From Sphingobacteriales bacterium 46-32 (GTDB lineage: Bacteria > Bacteroidota > Bacteroidia > Chitinophagales > Chitinophagaceae), in contig MKTY01000020.1 of assembly GCA_001898485.1 (NCBI GenBank), forward strand, positions 1,323,203-1,387,202: a stretch of DNA of 64,000 nucleotides, read 5' to 3'. Shown here piece after piece: positions 172 through 31,563 of the stretch; position 1 is the stretch's first letter; every line of letters starts with the position of its first letter. The notes under the pieces were generated by a model. It saw only the letters and a list, made by a program, of their open reading frames with translations. It was not told where the DNA came from and ran no database searches. The translations under genes and the position numbers were made by a program.

Positions 172-1515
172 ATGACCATTATGTTTCGAAATCTGTATTG
201 GATAATCGCATTGATATTACTTACCGCGTGTGGTACGAGTAAAAAAGGGTTTACCGAAGCGCGGCAGCAACTGCTGGATAGTAAAGCGTTGCAAACAGCA
301 CATACCGGCATCAGCATCTTTGACCCGGCTACGGGCAAATATATTTTCGACTACCAGGGCGACAAATATTTTGTGCCAGCCAGTAATATCAAGATACCTA
401 CCTGCTATGCAGCTATGAAATACCTGGGCGATAGCCTGGTTGCATTCCGTTATATACAGGATGATACGGCCGTATACCTGCTGCCGGCTGGCGACCCGAC
501 CCTGCTGCACCGCGATTATAAAAAACAAAAAGCCGTTGAATGGCTCCGGTCAACGAATAAATCCATTTATGTTGCAGCAAACAACTGGCAGGATACCCAT
601 TGGGGTTCCGGCTGGTCGTGGACCGACTACCTGGAAAGTTATATGCCGGAGCGCAGTCCACTGCCAGTATACGGTAATATGCTGCGGTGGATTAAAACAG
701 AGATAAAAGATCCTTATTCTGAAGAAGATGAAATGGTGAGTACGGTGTTTTCTGAACCATCACCCACCTGGCCGGTCGAATTTTCAATTGATGATAAAGA
801 CAGCAGCTTTTCTATTGACCGGGCTCTTGGTGAAAACACCTATACCATTCACGAAGGAAAACAAAAACAGGCCCAACTGGATATGCCCTTTGTAACACAT
901 GGACTGCAGTCGGCCCTGGAGCTAATGGCCGATACAGTGGGGCGCTCCCTGGCATCCATTCCCAAACTCCCGGGCAAAAAAGGTCCGCTTCAGGTAGTGC
1001 ATTCACAGCCCGTTGACTCGCTGCTGCGACCCATGATGCACCGCAGTGATAATTTCTTTGCAGAGCAATCATTGCTAATGGTGTCAAATGAGCGCCTGGG
1101 TGTTATGAACGACAACCGCATTATTGATACCTTGCTGAAAACCGATCTGCGCGACCTGCCGCAGGCACCACGCTGGGCCGATGGCTCGGGTCTGAGCCGG
1201 TATAATCTGTTTACTCCGCAGGACTTTGTAGCCATTCTTGCCAAAATGGAAAAAGAGTTTGGCATGGAGCGGCTGAAAAATGTTTTTCCCGCAGGGGGAA
1301 AAGGCACTTTGTCGAATTATTATAAAGCCGACACTCCTTATTTATTTGCCAAGACCGGCTCCCTCTCCGGTGTGATAGCACTCAGCGGCTACCTGTACAG
1401 CCGCAGTGGCAAACTGCTGATCTTCTCTGTACTGGTAAACAATCACCGGGCCACTGCAACAGAAGTGAGAAGAGCGGTGGAAAGTTTTTTGATAGAAATA
1501 AGAAACAGGGAGTGA
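172..1515 (+). CDS. dacB: D-alanyl-D-alanine carboxypeptidase/endopeptidase, PBP4 (peptidase S13) family lipoprotein
   Basis: Removes the terminal D-Ala from, or cleaves cross-links in, peptidoglycan on the outside of the inner membrane. All three penicillin-binding motifs are visible: S71-N-I-K74 (SxxK, acylated serine), S292-D-N294 (SxN) and K394-T-G. An N-terminal hydrophobic stretch ends in a lipobox LTAC with Cys20, so the protein is probably a lipoprotein. 447 residues is normal for the family. The first ATG (172) or the one at 181 could be the start; both leave the signal intact. The stop codon is followed after one base by a 14-unit 8-mer array, and another copy of the same element lies just upstream, so the gene sits between two near-identical repeats. 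The symbol is by family; assignment as the dacB orthologue is inference. Confidence 0.9.
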   Translation: MTIMFRNLYWIIALILLTACGTSKKGFTEARQQLLDSKALQTAHTGISIFDPATGKYIFDYQGDKYFVPASNIKIPTCYAAMKYLGDSLVAFRYIQDDTAVYLLPAGDPTLLHRDYKKQKAVEWLRSTNKSIYVAANNWQDTHWGSGWSWTDYLESYMPERSPLPVYGNMLRWIKTEIKDPYSEEDEMVSTVFSEPSPTWPVEFSIDDKDSSFSIDRALGENTYTIHEGKQKQAQLDMPFVTHGLQSALELMADTVGRSLASIPKLPGKKGPLQVVHSQPVDSLLRPMMHRSDNFFAEQSLLMVSNERLGVMNDNRIIDTLLKTDLRDLPQAPRWADGSGLSRYNLFTPQDFVAILAKMEKEFGMERLKNVFPAGGKGTLSNYYKADTPYLFAKTGSLSGVIALSGYLYSRSGKLLIFSVLVNNHRATATEVRRAVESFLIEIRNRE

Positions 1516-1753: not shown

Positions 1754-3586
1754 TCATCCTTTAAACATCTTCTCCAGCTGCTCCTGTTTAAACTCCAGAT
1801 AAGTGGGGTAGCCATCGGGAGTGCTGTTGGGTTGAGCGCAGTGAAACAGGTCCTGCAGCAGGTTGCGCATTTCACGTTCGGTAAGACGGGTACCGGTTTT
1901 TACGGCCTGCTGACGTGCCAGTGAGCGCACCAGTTTTTCGCGGCTGCTGAATTTCAGATCACTGCTGAAGTGTTTGTATTGCTCCAGCAACAGATCCAGT
2001 ACATGTTTTTCGTTGCCGGCTTCCAGATCGGCCGGCGTGCCCTGGATTACAAAACTGTTTTTACCAAAAGGTTCTACCTGATAGCCTAATAAGGATAAGT
2101 CGGGGAGGAGCTCCTGCATGATCACGGCATCGGCGGGAGTGAGTTCGAGTGTCGAAGGAAACAGACTACGCTGTGTGGCGATGGGTTTGCCATTGGCAGC
2201 AGCAATCATCTGCTCATATAATACACGCTCATGCGCTGACTGCTGATGAATGAGCAGAAAACCCTGCGGACTGGGCGTTACGATATAGGTATTGAGCAAT
2301 TGATGCAGCTCTACGTTTGAAAAGTCATTTTCATCTTCCTTATGAGCGGTGAGCTGCTGCGATTCATTGTAATGGCCAATGGTATCGTCTCCGCCAGGCG
2401 GTGCATAAAACTCCTGGAAGGGCTGCATGTTGCCGCGCCGCGTAGGTTCAATAAAGTGTGCCTGATTTTTTTGTGTAAATCCGCGAAACAGGCTGCTGCC
2501 TGAAATAGCATTCTGCCGTTCTTCTGTAAAAGGTTGCTGAATGCTGGGCAGTTGCTGAATGCCGGCATCGAGGTCAAAATCGAGGGTAGGCGTCACGCTA
2601 AACTGTGCCAGTGCATGTTTGATGGCTGCCTGCACAAATGCATATACGATCTTTTCGTCTTCAAACTTGATCTCCTGCTTGGTTGGGTGCACATTCACAT
2701 CTACCTGTGCGGGATCCAGATCAATGAAGAGCACATACATCGGGAAGCTGTCGCCGGCAATCAGCTCCTGGTAAGCATTCATGATGGCATGGTTGAGATA
2801 GGGGCTGCGGATAAAACGGTTGTTGACAAAGAAATACTGATCGCCTCTTGTCTTTTTAGCCGTATCCGGTTTGCCTACAAAACCATGAATATTCAGGTAG
2901 TCGGTATCTTCTTTTACAGTTACCAGGCGTGCATTGTAGTGATTGCCGAGTAGCTGTATGATGCGTTGCTTAAGACTGCCGGCATCGAGGTGAAACATCT
3001 GCTGCCCGTTGACAGTAAGTGTAAAGAGGATATGGGGAAATGCCATCGCCACACGTGTGAATTCATCGACGATATGGCGCATTTCTGCAGCATTACTTTT
3101 TAAGAAATTGCGGCGGGCAGGTACATTGAAAAACAGGTTTTTCATGGCAATGCTGGTACCTACGGAAGCGGCTACCGGCTCTTGCAGGGTGACTACGCTG
3201 TTTTCTACTTCTATACGTGTACCGGCATCATCCTGCTGGCGGCGGGTCTTTAGTTCAACCTGTGCTACCGCGGCAATAGAAGCCAGGGCTTCTCCGCGAA
3301 ATCCCATCGTACGGATATGAAAGAGGTCATCGATATGACGGATCTTGGAAGTGGCGTGACGTTCAAAACAGAGTCGGGCATCGGTTTCGCTCATACCCGA
3401 TCCGTTATCTATCACCTGGATCAGTGATTTGCCCGCATCGGCCACGATCAATTGTATTTCGGTAGCACCTGCGTCTACCGCATTTTCGAGTAACTCCTTG
3501 ACGGCACTGGCCGGCCGCTGTATCACCTCTCCGGCGGCTATCTGGTTGGCAATATTATCAGGTAAAAGGACGATTTTGTCAGACAC
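1754..3586 (-). CDS. mutL: DNA mismatch repair protein MutL
   Basis: Couples MutS mismatch recognition to strand removal. The N-terminal GHKL ATPase is complete: the KELLENAVDAG motif (30-40), DNGSGM (60-65), GFRGEAL (95-101), and the transducer domain to about residue 330. A linker follows, then a C-terminal dimerisation domain (about 420-610). The C-terminal endonuclease signatures are altered: the DQHA motif reads HQQS (447-450), the ACxxA motif has Arg in place of Cys (558), and the CPHGRP motif reads TPDGYP (589-594). The metal-binding residues known from endonucleolytic MutL proteins are therefore absent. 610 residues is a normal length. The coding strand faces the upstream dacB-like gene. 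Confidence 0.96.
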   Translation of the reverse strand: MSDKIVLLPDNIANQIAAGEVIQRPASAVKELLENAVDAGATEIQLIVADAGKSLIQVIDNGSGMSETDARLCFERHATSKIRHIDDLFHIRTMGFRGEALASIAAVAQVELKTRRQQDDAGTRIEVENSVVTLQEPVAASVGTSIAMKNLFFNVPARRNFLKSNAAEMRHIVDEFTRVAMAFPHILFTLTVNGQQMFHLDAGSLKQRIIQLLGNHYNARLVTVKEDTDYLNIHGFVGKPDTAKKTRGDQYFFVNNRFIRSPYLNHAIMNAYQELIAGDSFPMYVLFIDLDPAQVDVNVHPTKQEIKFEDEKIVYAFVQAAIKHALAQFSVTPTLDFDLDAGIQQLPSIQQPFTEERQNAISGSSLFRGFTQKNQAHFIEPTRRGNMQPFQEFYAPPGGDDTIGHYNESQQLTAHKEDENDFSNVELHQLLNTYIVTPSPQGFLLIHQQSAHERVLYEQMIAAANGKPIATQRSLFPSTLELTPADAVIMQELLPDLSLLGYQVEPFGKNSFVIQGTPADLEAGNEKHVLDLLLEQYKHFSSDLKFSSREKLVRSLARQQAVKTGTRLTEREMRNLLQDLFHCAQPNSTPDGYPTYLEFKQEQLEKMFKG

Positions 3587-3730: not shown

Positions 3731-6625
3731 ATGATCAAGTCTGTCTCTTTTTTGCTGAGTTGTTGTTTTCTTATGGTTACGGCTACACGCGCACAGTTTT
3801 CGAGCCAGTTGCCGGAGCAGGCCTGGGTCGACTCGGTGTTTCACAGCCTGAGCAAGGAAGAAAAGATCGCACAGCTGATGGTGATCCGCGCCCATTCCAA
3901 CCTGGGGCCTGATCATATCGCCAAAGTGACCAGCGATATTCGGCAATATAATGTAGGAGCCCTCTGCTTTTTTCAGGGAGGTCCGGTGCGCCAGGCACAG
4001 CTTACCAATGCCTACCAGGCCATGGCCAAAACTCCCCTGATGGTGACCATCGATGGGGAATGGGGCGTAGGCATGCGGCTAGACTCTGTTACCAAATTTC
4101 CCTATCAGCTTACCCTGGGTGCATTGAAAGATGAAGACCTGGTATACCGGATGGGAGTAGCTGTGGGTGAGCAGTGCAAACGCCTGGGCATACACGTGAA
4201 CTACGCACCCGTAGTGGATGTAAATAATAACCCTAACAATCCTGTGATTGGTTACCGCTCCTTTGGTGCCAATAAGGATAAAGTGGCCAGCTTTGGTGCC
4301 GCTTATACCAGAGGTATGCAGGCTGCAGGTATTATGGCCTGTGCCAAACATTTTCCCGGTCATGGTGATGTGGATGTGGATTCACATTATGATCTGCCGG
4401 TTGTCAATAAAACTATTGCACAACTCGACAGTCTTGAGCTGGTTCCTTTTTATGCCCAGGTAAAAGCCGGTGTGGGCAGTTTTATGATTGCTCACCTGTC
4501 TATCCCTGCGGTTGATAATACCGCTAACCGCGCTACCTCTATTTCTAAAAATGCCGTGACGGGATTGCTGCGCGAAAAACTCGGTTATGACGGACTCACA
4601 TTTACCGATGCGCTGGAGATGAAAGGCGTGGCCAAATATTTTCCCGGAGGTACTATTGCGGTAGAAGCATTGATAGCAGGTAATGATATGCTGTGTCTGC
4701 CGGCCAGTGTGCCCGAAACGATTGAGGCGGTTAAAAAAGCCATTAAACAAAAAAAGCTGAGCTGGGATGATATCGATGAAAAAGTATTGAAGGTATTGCA
4801 TGCCAAATACCGCCTGGGACTGGCAAACCTGCAGCCGGTAAAGCTCGATAACCTGCTCGAAGACCTAAATGCCAAAACAAATGAGATCCGTTACGAAGCT
4901 GCCAGCCAGTCGATCACCGTACTGCGTGCAGAGACAGCCATGGCCGCTCTATCTGGTCCCAAAACGGCTTTTGTGGGTATTGGTCTCAGCAGCAACAACG
5001 ATTTTGGTAAACGGATGGAAGAAGAGCTGAAGGCAGATGTGTATTTATATAGTTATGCCGCTAATGCCGATGCTGCTGCCAGCCTGCAGCAATCACTTAA
5101 AAATGGCGGTTATGAGAGGGTGATTATAGGCGTACACAATTACAGTCTGCGTCCGGCTAATAATTATGGTATCAGCGAAAATGCGCGGCAGTTATTTAGC
5201 AGCCTGCAAAGCTATAATCCGCTCACGCTGGTTTTTGGCAACGTGCTGGCGGTATCCAATTTTTGCGATGCAAAAAATCTGATCGCCTGCTACCAGGACG
5301 ATGATATTACCCAGCAGGCGGCCGCCGATCTGCTGACCGGCAAATTATTTTCCATGGGTACACTACCGGTAGCTGTATGTCAGTTTAAGGTGGGCGATGG
5401 GTTGGTACACGGCGGTATTAAGCCGGCAAGAGCTGTTATAAATAGAGACAGGCTGAGTGTGATTGATACCATTGCGCTGGACGGCATTGCACAAAAGGCT
5501 TATCCCGGTTGCGTGGTGCTGGCGGTGCATGACGGAGAGATTGTGTATCACAAGGCCTTTGGCAGTCTGGAATATGATGGTAAACAGCCCATGAATATGG
5601 AGGATGTGTTTGACCTTGCTTCCGTAACCAAGATATCGGCCACTACGGTATCGGTGATGAAGCTGGTGGAGCAGGGCAAACTCGATATTACGAAGACCCT
5701 GGGCAATTACCTGCCGGTGGTGCGGGGGACTGATAAAGCGGGTCTGCGTATCGATGATATCTTGTTGCATCAGGCCGGTCTCGTACCTTTTATTTCTTTT
5801 TATAAGGAAACGATTGATCCGGCAACGGGCATTCCCAATCCCGCTATTTATAGTGATAAAAAGAAAAAAGGTTTTGAGATACGGGTGGCGGAGAACCTGT
5901 ACCTGCGCAACGACTGGGAAGATACGCTCATGAGCCGTATTCTGAAGAGTCCGCTGGGGCCACGTAATAAGTATGTGTACAGCGATAACGATTTTATTTT
6001 TCTCGGAAAAATTGTGGAGCAGATTACGGGTATGCCCCTGAATGAATATGTGCAGAAAACCTTTTACGATAAAATGGGCATGGCCACTACCGGGTTTACG
6101 CCACGTAAGCGGGTGGCACTGGATCGTATTGTGCCTACGGAAGAAGAAAAACATTTTCGCCGACAGCTGATGCGCGGAGATGTGCATGATGAAGGGGCTT
6201 CACTCTTTGGTGGGGTAGCCGGTCATGCCGGGCTATTTTCAGATGCCTATGACCTGGCTATGCTGTACCAGATGCTGCTCAATGGCGGTGAGTTTAATGG
6301 TATGCGCTACCTGAAACCTGAGACTATTAAGTTATTTACCGCTTATCATAGCGATATCAGCCGCCGGGGCTATGGTTTTGATAAACCCGAAAAAAATAAT
6401 GCCACGCGCAAGGATCCTTATCCTGCTATCAGTGTATCGCCCGATACGTATGGCCATACCGGTTTTACCGGCACCTGTGTATGGGTAGATCCCCAGGTGA
6501 ACCTGGTGTATGTCTTTCTCAGCAACCGTGTGTATCCCACACGCGATAATCCGAAACTATCGCAGCTCAATATCCGTACGCGTATTCAGGATGCGTTGTA
6601 CCAGGCTCTGGAGTTGAAGAAATAG
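3731..6625 (+). CDS. Fused glycoside hydrolase family 3 (NagZ-like) and beta-lactamase-like serine hydrolase
   Basis: A 964-residue exported protein with signal peptide (about 1-22, ending TRAQ). The first part (about 25-390) is a GH3 N-terminal domain: it contains KHFPGHGD (206-213, the NagZ-type loop with catalytic His211) and the nucleophile Asp293 in FTDALEMKG. A middle segment (about 400-560) resembles the GH3 C-terminal fold. The last part (about 580-964) is a class C beta-lactamase/PBP-like domain with S631-V-T-K634, Y750-S-D-N753 and H909-T-G911 standing in for KTG. The likely job is trimming of cell-wall fragments: N-acetylglucosaminidase plus a peptidase or esterase. The fusion is known from Bacteroidota; the serine hydrolase substrate is unknown. 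It diverges from mutL. Confidence 0.9.
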   Translation: MIKSVSFLLSCCFLMVTATRAQFSSQLPEQAWVDSVFHSLSKEEKIAQLMVIRAHSNLGPDHIAKVTSDIRQYNVGALCFFQGGPVRQAQLTNAYQAMAKTPLMVTIDGEWGVGMRLDSVTKFPYQLTLGALKDEDLVYRMGVAVGEQCKRLGIHVNYAPVVDVNNNPNNPVIGYRSFGANKDKVASFGAAYTRGMQAAGIMACAKHFPGHGDVDVDSHYDLPVVNKTIAQLDSLELVPFYAQVKAGVGSFMIAHLSIPAVDNTANRATSISKNAVTGLLREKLGYDGLTFTDALEMKGVAKYFPGGTIAVEALIAGNDMLCLPASVPETIEAVKKAIKQKKLSWDDIDEKVLKVLHAKYRLGLANLQPVKLDNLLEDLNAKTNEIRYEAASQSITVLRAETAMAALSGPKTAFVGIGLSSNNDFGKRMEEELKADVYLYSYAANADAAASLQQSLKNGGYERVIIGVHNYSLRPANNYGISENARQLFSSLQSYNPLTLVFGNVLAVSNFCDAKNLIACYQDDDITQQAAADLLTGKLFSMGTLPVAVCQFKVGDGLVHGGIKPARAVINRDRLSVIDTIALDGIAQKAYPGCVVLAVHDGEIVYHKAFGSLEYDGKQPMNMEDVFDLASVTKISATTVSVMKLVEQGKLDITKTLGNYLPVVRGTDKAGLRIDDILLHQAGLVPFISFYKETIDPATGIPNPAIYSDKKKKGFEIRVAENLYLRNDWEDTLMSRILKSPLGPRNKYVYSDNDFIFLGKIVEQITGMPLNEYVQKTFYDKMGMATTGFTPRKRVALDRIVPTEEEKHFRRQLMRGDVHDEGASLFGGVAGHAGLFSDAYDLAMLYQMLLNGGEFNGMRYLKPETIKLFTAYHSDISRRGYGFDKPEKNNATRKDPYPAISVSPDTYGHTGFTGTCVWVDPQVNLVYVFLSNRVYPTRDNPKLSQLNIRTRIQDALYQALELKK

Positions 6626-15730: not shown

Positions 15731-15875
15731 GTGCTGGTGTGCTGATGTGCTAATGGTCTTTTAAAGATTCAATATTGATCCTGCAAAGGCCTTGATAATT
15801 TTTCAAATATGCAATTGACTACTTGAAAAACAATCTGACCGTTATTAGCACATCAGCAAATCAGCACATCAGCAC
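15731..15875. repeat. Array-hairpin element, 8-mer family, copy 3
   Basis: Left arm of three units (gtgctggt, gtgctgat, gtgctaat; 15731-15754) and right arm of four units (attagcac, atcagcaa, atcagcac, atcagcac; 15844-15875). The ~89-base spacer is unrelated to that of copies 1 and 2. It lies between the holB start and the M16 peptidase stop codon, ending 6 bases from the latter. Confidence 0.8.
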
Positions 15876-15881
15876 ATTGCC

Positions 15882-20830: not shown

Positions 20831-20844
20831 AAGTAATCAGAATA

Positions 20845-20993
20845 GTTGACAGTTAATAGATGACAGTTAACAGTTGACAGTGGACCGTGGATAGTGGACA
20901 GCCATTATTGGGTAATTGTTTTAACGGCTAAGTAAGCAGCGCCTTGTTTGATTTTTTCTGTTAACTGTCAACTGTCAACTGTCCACTGTCCAC
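20845..20993. repeat. Array-hairpin element, 7-mer family (GTTGACA), copy 1
   Basis: Left arm of eight contiguous 7-mers (gttgaca, gttaata, gatgaca, gttaaca, gttgaca, gtggacc, gtggata, gtggaca; 20845-20900). Right arm of five 7-mers (tgttaac, tgtcaac, tgtcaac, tgtccac, tgtccac; 20959-20993). The word order mirrors between arms: the TTAAC/TTGAC block and the GTGGAC block occur in matching order for pairing. The right arm shares one base with the comF stop codon; the left arm lies 14 bases upstream of the beta-helix gene start. Confidence 0.88.
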
Positions 20994-21691
20994 TAATTCG
21001 CGTAGCACAAAGCAGCTACACTCAACTTCACTTCAGGTGCCTGTAGCAATACGCTGCCGCAGGCTTCGAGGGTGGCGCCGGTGGTGATCACATCGTCTAC
21101 CAGCAGCAGGTGTTTGCCGGCAACAGGCTGGTGGTTGATGAGTTGAAAATTGCCGGCCATATTTTGCCATCGTTCAATACGTGTTTTATGCGTTTGCGAT
21201 TCGGTATGCCTTGATCGGACTACGATATCGTTGTATACCGGCCAGCCAGTCTCAGCAGCAATACCCTGGCATAATAGTGCTGATTGATTATAACCGCGTG
21301 CCTTTTCGCGCGAAGCGTACAATGGAAGAGGTATGAGTGCATCTGGCTGTATGCGAGGGCTGGTGATTAAAGCTTCTCCCATCAGCCTGCCGGCAAATAA
21401 TCCCCATTCGCGATGTCCTTTATATTTCAGGGCATGCATGAGGCGCTGTATGGCCGATGCGCGGGAGAAATAAAAGTGTGCATAGGCTGCTTCGAGCGGC
21501 AGCCTGCCCCAGAATTTTTTTTCAACCGGATTATCGGCTATGGCAGCAAACCCCGTTTCGGGCAATGCTGCCATACAACGGATACAAACAGGCTGGTGCC
21601 GGGGTAGCCGGTCACTGCCACAGCCGGCACAGCAATGCGGAAAAAACAAATGCAGTATGGCCTCCTTCCACTGTTTCCATTCCCTTCTCAT
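20993..21691 (-). CDS. comF: ComF family phosphoribosyltransferase-like protein
   Basis: 232 residues. An N-terminal zinc-ribbon-like part has CCAGCG and CIRCMAAL cysteine pairs. The C-terminal phosphoribosyltransferase domain has the PRPP-binding loop LLLVDDVITTGATLEACG near residues 195-212. ComF proteins act in the cytoplasm in uptake or processing of transforming DNA. A comEC homologue is present 28 kb away in this window. It is 23 bases from radA on the same strand, so the two may be cotranscribed. Confidence 0.88.
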   Translation of the reverse strand: MRREWKQWKEAILHLFFPHCCAGCGSDRLPRHQPVCIRCMAALPETGFAAIADNPVEKKFWGRLPLEAAYAHFYFSRASAIQRLMHALKYKGHREWGLFAGRLMGEALITSPRIQPDALIPLPLYASREKARGYNQSALLCQGIAAETGWPVYNDIVVRSRHTESQTHKTRIERWQNMAGNFQLINHQPVAGKHLLLVDDVITTGATLEACGSVLLQAPEVKLSVAALCYAN

Positions 21692-31477: not shown

Positions 31478-31478
31478 A

Positions 31479-31563
31479 GTTGACAGTTGACAGATGACAG
31501 TTGACAGAAGGAGATTCGGATAAAGGAGAATCTACTTACTACTTAGCACTGTTAACCGTCCAC
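31479..31563. repeat. Array-hairpin element, 7-mer family (GTTGACA), copy 2
   Basis: Left arm of four 7-mers (gttgaca, gttgaca, gatgaca, gttgaca; 31479-31506), starting one base after the M14 stop codon. Right arm of two (tgttaac, cgtccac; 31550-31563), abutting the terminator. The arms are unequal, so pairing is partial. Confidence 0.7.

Follow-up and report, generated by a model that had tools for sequence, protein, structure and literature searches.

Most prokaryotes have no MutH, and in these organisms MutL itself holds the endonuclease activity, according to a passage of PMC9405553; a 2025 review, in the portion cited here, credits 'many bacteria' with a MutL endonuclease (PMC12733681). 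The zinc of MutL is bound by residues of the motifs DQHA(X)2E(X)4E, ACR, and CPHGRP, as described in part of PMC10366529. The same part of that paper identifies the Arg of CPHGRP as catalytic and required in vivo in Thermus, where an Arg-to-Thr substitution left a strain without mutL unrescued; in the A. aeolicus enzyme, in which all of the ligands are present, an Arg-to-Lys substitution left weak activity (PMC10366529). E. coli MutL, which is without a nuclease, works as a matchmaker, as stated in a section of PMC12733681. The mutL gene considered here lies in a 64,000-nucleotide stretch of the genome of Sphingobacteriales bacterium 46-32 (contig MKTY01000020.1), which is called the window. 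Almost every sampled member of its class departs from the rule that a bacterium without MutH has a nicking MutL.

A full-length MutL and its former metal site

The mutL ORF occupies 1754..3586 of the window, stop codon included, and encodes 610 residues from a GTG start at 3586. The first-pass annotation gave these coordinates correctly and left out the strand, which is minus. Pfam places HATPase_c_3 at residues 26-121, DNA_mis_repair at 209-326 (131 bits), and MutL_C at 428-568 (positions 2-142 of the 142 in the model, 96 bits). With boundaries of our own choosing, the N-terminal GHKL ATPase and transducer region comprises residues 1-335 (2582..3586, minus strand), and the C-terminal MutL_C domain (CTD) residues 426-610 (1757..2311, minus strand). 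The NCBIfam model TIGR00585 matches with 521.5 bits against a cut-off of 180; its name is 'DNA mismatch repair endonuclease MutL', which is what NCBI still calls such a protein. Judged by its domain content, then, the ORF is a full-length MutL, with GHKL ATPase, transducer, and MutL_C in one protein.

The CTD aligns by phmmer with that of B. subtilis MutL (the sequence common to 3gab, 3kdg, and 3kdk; E 5.5e-18), and the alignment sets H447, Q449, R558, T589, D591, and Y593 opposite B. subtilis D, H, C, C, H, and R, while E453 and E458 are retained. On the minus strand, the former DQHA(X)2E(X)4E motif reads HQQSAHERVLYE (residues 447-458; 2213..2248), with the Asp and the ligand His lost and both Glu residues kept. 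The former AC(R/K)xxA motif is ARQQAV (residues 557-562; 1901..1918, minus), its Cys having become R558, and the former CPHGRP motif is TPDGYP (residues 589-594; 1805..1822, minus), from which the C, the H, and the catalytic R are all gone. Six residues before this last motif is a cysteine, C583 (1838..1840, minus). The sliding-clamp binding motif, QxxLxP, is kept as QRSLFP (residues 472-477; 2156..2173, minus). Thus, of the features that mark an endonuclease MutL, the Asp and ligand His of DQHA, the Cys of ACR, and CPHGRP are all missing, and QxxLxP, a feature not specific to nicking MutL, is present.

Of the five zinc ligands, the B. subtilis alignment confirms, E453 alone is still in place; the other four have been replaced, as have the Asp of the first motif and the Arg that is catalytic. 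The alignment bears out the earlier claim that the metal site of nicking MutL proteins is gone here, and the motifs on which that claim was built (HQQS from residue 447, R558 within ARQQA from 557, and TPDGYP from 589) were read exactly. Judged from these replacements, it is nearly certain that this MutL has lost canonical nicking. A genome of the same genus (L003, 98% identical) has the same three motifs. Sequencing error or chance is ruled out, since L003 shares the motifs and all 115 rows of the family in the survey described below keep two ligands or fewer.

The CTD itself has not been lost. AlphaFold2 predicts the MutL fold for residues 411-610 with confidence (pLDDT 87.7, pTM 0.80), and the model aligns with the MutL CTD structures of N. 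gonorrhoeae (3ncv, Z 16.8), B. subtilis (3gab, Z 14.7), and E. coli (1x9z, Z 13.7, rmsd 3.3, with 14% identity across the CTD), with 5b42 (Z 13.1), and with the MutL part of the clamp-MutL complexes 6e8d and 6e8e. In the predicted structure, then, the CTD is present and the metal site alone is gone. When compared with its nearest relative, L032, the gene has dN/dS values of 0.009 for the N-terminal region, 0.043 for the linker, and 0.016 for the CTD, and this is the one comparison of six in which dS is unsaturated in all three regions; the other five involve more distant relatives, and dS is saturated or nearly so in at least one region. In all six, constraint is strongest on the N-terminal ATPase region. 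These ratios indicate that MutL is under strong purifying selection and is not decaying. A pseudogene or an assembly error is ruled out by the motifs of L003 together with the dN/dS values.

Distribution and history of the loss

The survey began with 284 MutL loci. Searches by handle and at the level of family, class, and phylum each contributed no more than 30 of them; 80 were named loci of Chitinophagaceae, and chosen stretches supplied more. Exclusion of one partial locus (L236) and removal of identical sequences left 261; the MutL of the window, entered alongside the copy from its own genome, brought the total to 262 rows. The row of L158 ends before the last motif. Class and family are GTDB ranks, and we take the class in question to be GTDB Bacteroidia; the NCBI taxonomy puts Chitinophagaceae in class Chitinophagia of the Bacteroidota. 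Five ligands were counted: H449, E453, C558, C589, and H591.

In this sample, which is non-random in that the rows of the bacterium's own family are mostly nearest matches and most other families contribute one or two rows, none to two of the five ligands are kept by 115 of 115 rows of the family and by 94 of 95 rows of the other families of the class, the remaining row keeping all five. Outside the class, 32 of the 52 rows from the phylum keep five ligands and 20 keep none to two. Counted by family, a full site is present in one of 55 within the class; among 39 families outside it, 22 are intact throughout, 16 lack the full site altogether, and one is mixed. The clamp motif, as QxxLx[PA], is found in 115 of 115 rows of the family, 89 of 94 other class rows, 18 of 20 other degenerate rows, and 30 of 33 intact rows. 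Loss of the site in this lineage, as first annotated, is real, but it is far older and wider than had been supposed, extending to almost the whole sampled class and to other branches of the phylum.

The string DQHxAHER is present in all 33 intact rows. A degenerate DNA pattern for it matches 22 of 395 class genomes, some of which are incomplete, and is blind to full sites without His452; three of the 22 also have CPHGRP, and all three belong to one family, f84. A full site was found in three of three f84 genomes examined (L281, L300, and L301), so that the exception is genuine and does not come down to a single stray contig. This family provides a ready control within the class. As for the gene as a whole, MutL is without a match in four of 195 genomes of the family, one of which (G139) is given as 100% complete, and is present in 193 of 198 class genomes, the five without a match including one (G544) given as 98% complete.

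A tree was built from the N-terminal region alone, with the motifs unused, for 163 rows (33 of them intact), and was rooted at the midpoint. Seven changes between the intact and the lost state are required on it. A clade of 116 rows (support 0.99) consists of 111 class rows and five rows of f21, f23, f42, and f50; within this clade, f84 alone is intact, and its placement is weak (the adjoining group has a support of 0.21). The additional changes between intact and lost fall outside the class. Loss of the MutL site is thus old and has probably happened more than once, and gain of an intact site by transfer is possible.

Repair partners and candidate nucleases

MutS1 is present in this genome (940 bits), and all 19 relatives have a MutS1 match above the family cut-off, split into two pieces in one of them (G137). 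Three more ORFs of this genome (718, 443, and 613 residues, at C25:63986, C19:145963, and C20:1302130) match only the C-terminal part of the MutS model. One relative, G002, has 30 matches to the MutS model, a large expansion of MutS-like proteins mostly of 430 to 490 residues. UvrD-type helicases (UvrD_C, 268 bits) and RNase HII (142 bits) are also present, and are found in 12 of 14 and 14 of 14 control genomes, respectively.

The suggestion in the first-pass annotation that a second MutL might exist does not hold for this genome, in which PF08676 and PF01119 match once each. Some other genomes have two or three MutL matches each. Part of these were re-examined and proved to be halves of one gene, except in G195, in which a 433-residue ORF has a 56-residue MutL match, and G476, in which there are partial pieces. 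As for a fused nuclease domain, none of the 262 rows, as cut, is longer than 679 residues. The search for MutH that had been proposed was carried out with PF02976, which gives no match in this genome and does match in the E. coli control. Among 296 phylum genomes, four have PF02976 matches (L200-L206), in ORFs of 463 to 481 residues, three of which have two MutH-like stretches. We take these ORFs to be reminiscent of Sau3AI-type restriction enzymes. NucS was likewise considered and rejected: the best match in this genome reaches 23.1 bits against a NucS_C cut-off of 24, and the same ORF, a YhcG_C/DUF1016_N protein, matches YhcG_C with 200.6 bits.

Within the window, mutL is flanked by a Peptidase_S13 gene (172..1515, plus strand) and a Glyco_hydro_3/Beta-lactamase gene (3731..6625, plus strand), both assigned by Pfam, and no nuclease gene stands beside it. 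Among the 80 family loci, a gene like that at 3731..6625 (judged by eye) is near mutL in 61 and one like that at 172..1515 in 55. Of the 13 largest clusters of neighbors, 11 were judged by eye alone. A gene for Uma2, described by Pfam as a putative restriction endonuclease, is within 5 kb of mutL in eight of the 80 loci, L077 among them; the assignment comes from one tested member of this cluster. As a general partner of MutL, Uma2 is unlikely, given this low count and its absence beside mutL in the window.

The window also contains repeats. Arrays of an 8-bp unit (TGATGTGC, its rotations, and its reverse complement) are located at 1-49, 1513-1629, and 15847-15877, and 14.6 perfect copies stand immediately downstream of mutL. 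Runs of at least two perfect units are absent from the fetched loci of other genomes, including the 98% identical L003 and L032. Short tandem repeats with a 7-bp unit are present at 20841-20994 and 31478-31507; the unit AGTTGAC occurs in two locations, one of which has CTGTCAA next to it.

A working model and its relation to known systems

The chances seem evenly balanced that the MutL described here is a nuclease-free, ATP-driven matchmaker, for which the cut is supplied by nascent-strand ends that already exist and are reached through the sliding clamp. MutS bound at a mismatch would load MutL as an ATP-driven clamp; MutL would bind the replication clamp through QxxLxP and would hence act close to fresh nascent-strand ends, which it would pass to helicase and exonucleases. 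Its role would be like that of E. coli MutL, without MutH. The entry nick would most likely be an end made by replication or by ribonucleotide removal, that is, an Okazaki-fragment end or an RNase HII site, and, according to a passage of PMC8744996, both have been put forward as points of entry in a bacterium without MutH. The nascent-strand-end reading is favored because it requires no extra part and because the nuclease-less MutL of E. coli is a matchmaker. In E. coli, a persistent nick can reportedly stand in for MutH. Several considerations count against it: nascent-strand ends should be frequent on just one strand, the lagging one; the cysteine C583 leaves room for a remodeled site; and the position of the third-motif Arg, across the 209 degenerate rows of the class, is occupied by Arg in 17 and by Lys in 90.

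Alternatively, the strand-specific nick may be made throughout the class by a dedicated novel nuclease, unrelated to MutH and NucS, that MutL activates. This is the main rival, possible but doubtful. The first-pass annotation had raised another nuclease as a source of the cut; nicks already there during replication are a third option, which it did not list. MutS and MutL have been kept and remain constrained although the nuclease site was lost, as such a partner would lead one to expect, and E. coli, whose MutL is also without the site according to a passage of PMC2965676, has a partner of this kind in MutH. The Uma2 genes near mutL point in the same direction, but they are found at just eight of 80 loci and not in the window, and this genome has neither a MutH match nor a NucS match above the cut-off. 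The presence of RNase HII and UvrD-type helicases does not favor nascent-strand ends over a hidden nuclease, because both are near-universal.

Either reading supposes that MutL itself no longer cuts. That it nicks through a rebuilt metal site, composed, for example, of H452, E453, and the newly conserved C583, is improbable, even though C583 lies near the former site and may leave room for a remodeled one. Of the 210 class rows, 189 have E453, 182 have H452, and 194 have C583; 154 rows have the full set, and C583 is present in only eight of the 33 intact rows. Moreover, the commonest residues at two of the lost positions in the family are H447 (87 of 115) and D591 (57 of 115). However, every one of the 33 intact rows has H452 and E453, which are therefore not new, and no Cys, His, Asp, or Glu is dominant across the class at any lost ligand position, the commonest residues in the 209 degenerate class rows being Q449 (154), R558 (96), T589 (97), and D591 (70). 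Departure of the class MutL from mismatch repair for another role, such as anti-recombination, would fit the loss of a catalytic site in a single-copy gene, yet it is very unlikely when set against the retention of MutS1 in all 19 relatives and of MutL in nearly all class genomes, and against the position of the N-terminal ATPase region as the most constrained part of the protein. It is rather likely, in sum, that the MutL nuclease was lost long ago, that the class now carries out MutS-MutL repair with neither of the known nicking enzymes, and that either a new nuclease or clamp-read replication nicks have taken over. The class would then offer a natural test of repair run on nicks left by replication, a matter of strand discrimination, or a place in which to look for a new repair nuclease.

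Among literature under open licence, no report of MutL nuclease loss in the class was found, and Banasik and Sachadyn (2014) may mention it. Of the known systems, NucS/EndoMS resembles this one in that cutting at mismatches needs neither MutH nor a MutL nuclease, and differs in that the present genome has both MutS and MutL and no NucS above the cut-off. The endonuclease MutL proteins of B. subtilis, N. gonorrhoeae, and A. aeolicus are homologous to the MutL described here, as indicated by CTD sequence, predicted fold, and the clamp motif, but the protein of this genome is without the zinc ligands H, C, C, and H and the catalytic Arg. Its predicted CTD fold without nuclease residues is like that of E. 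coli MutL, which a passage of PMC2965676 describes as lacking them; unlike the genome that supports methyl-directed repair in E. coli, however, this one is without MutH. The combination seen here is an E. coli-like MutL in a genome that has no MutH.
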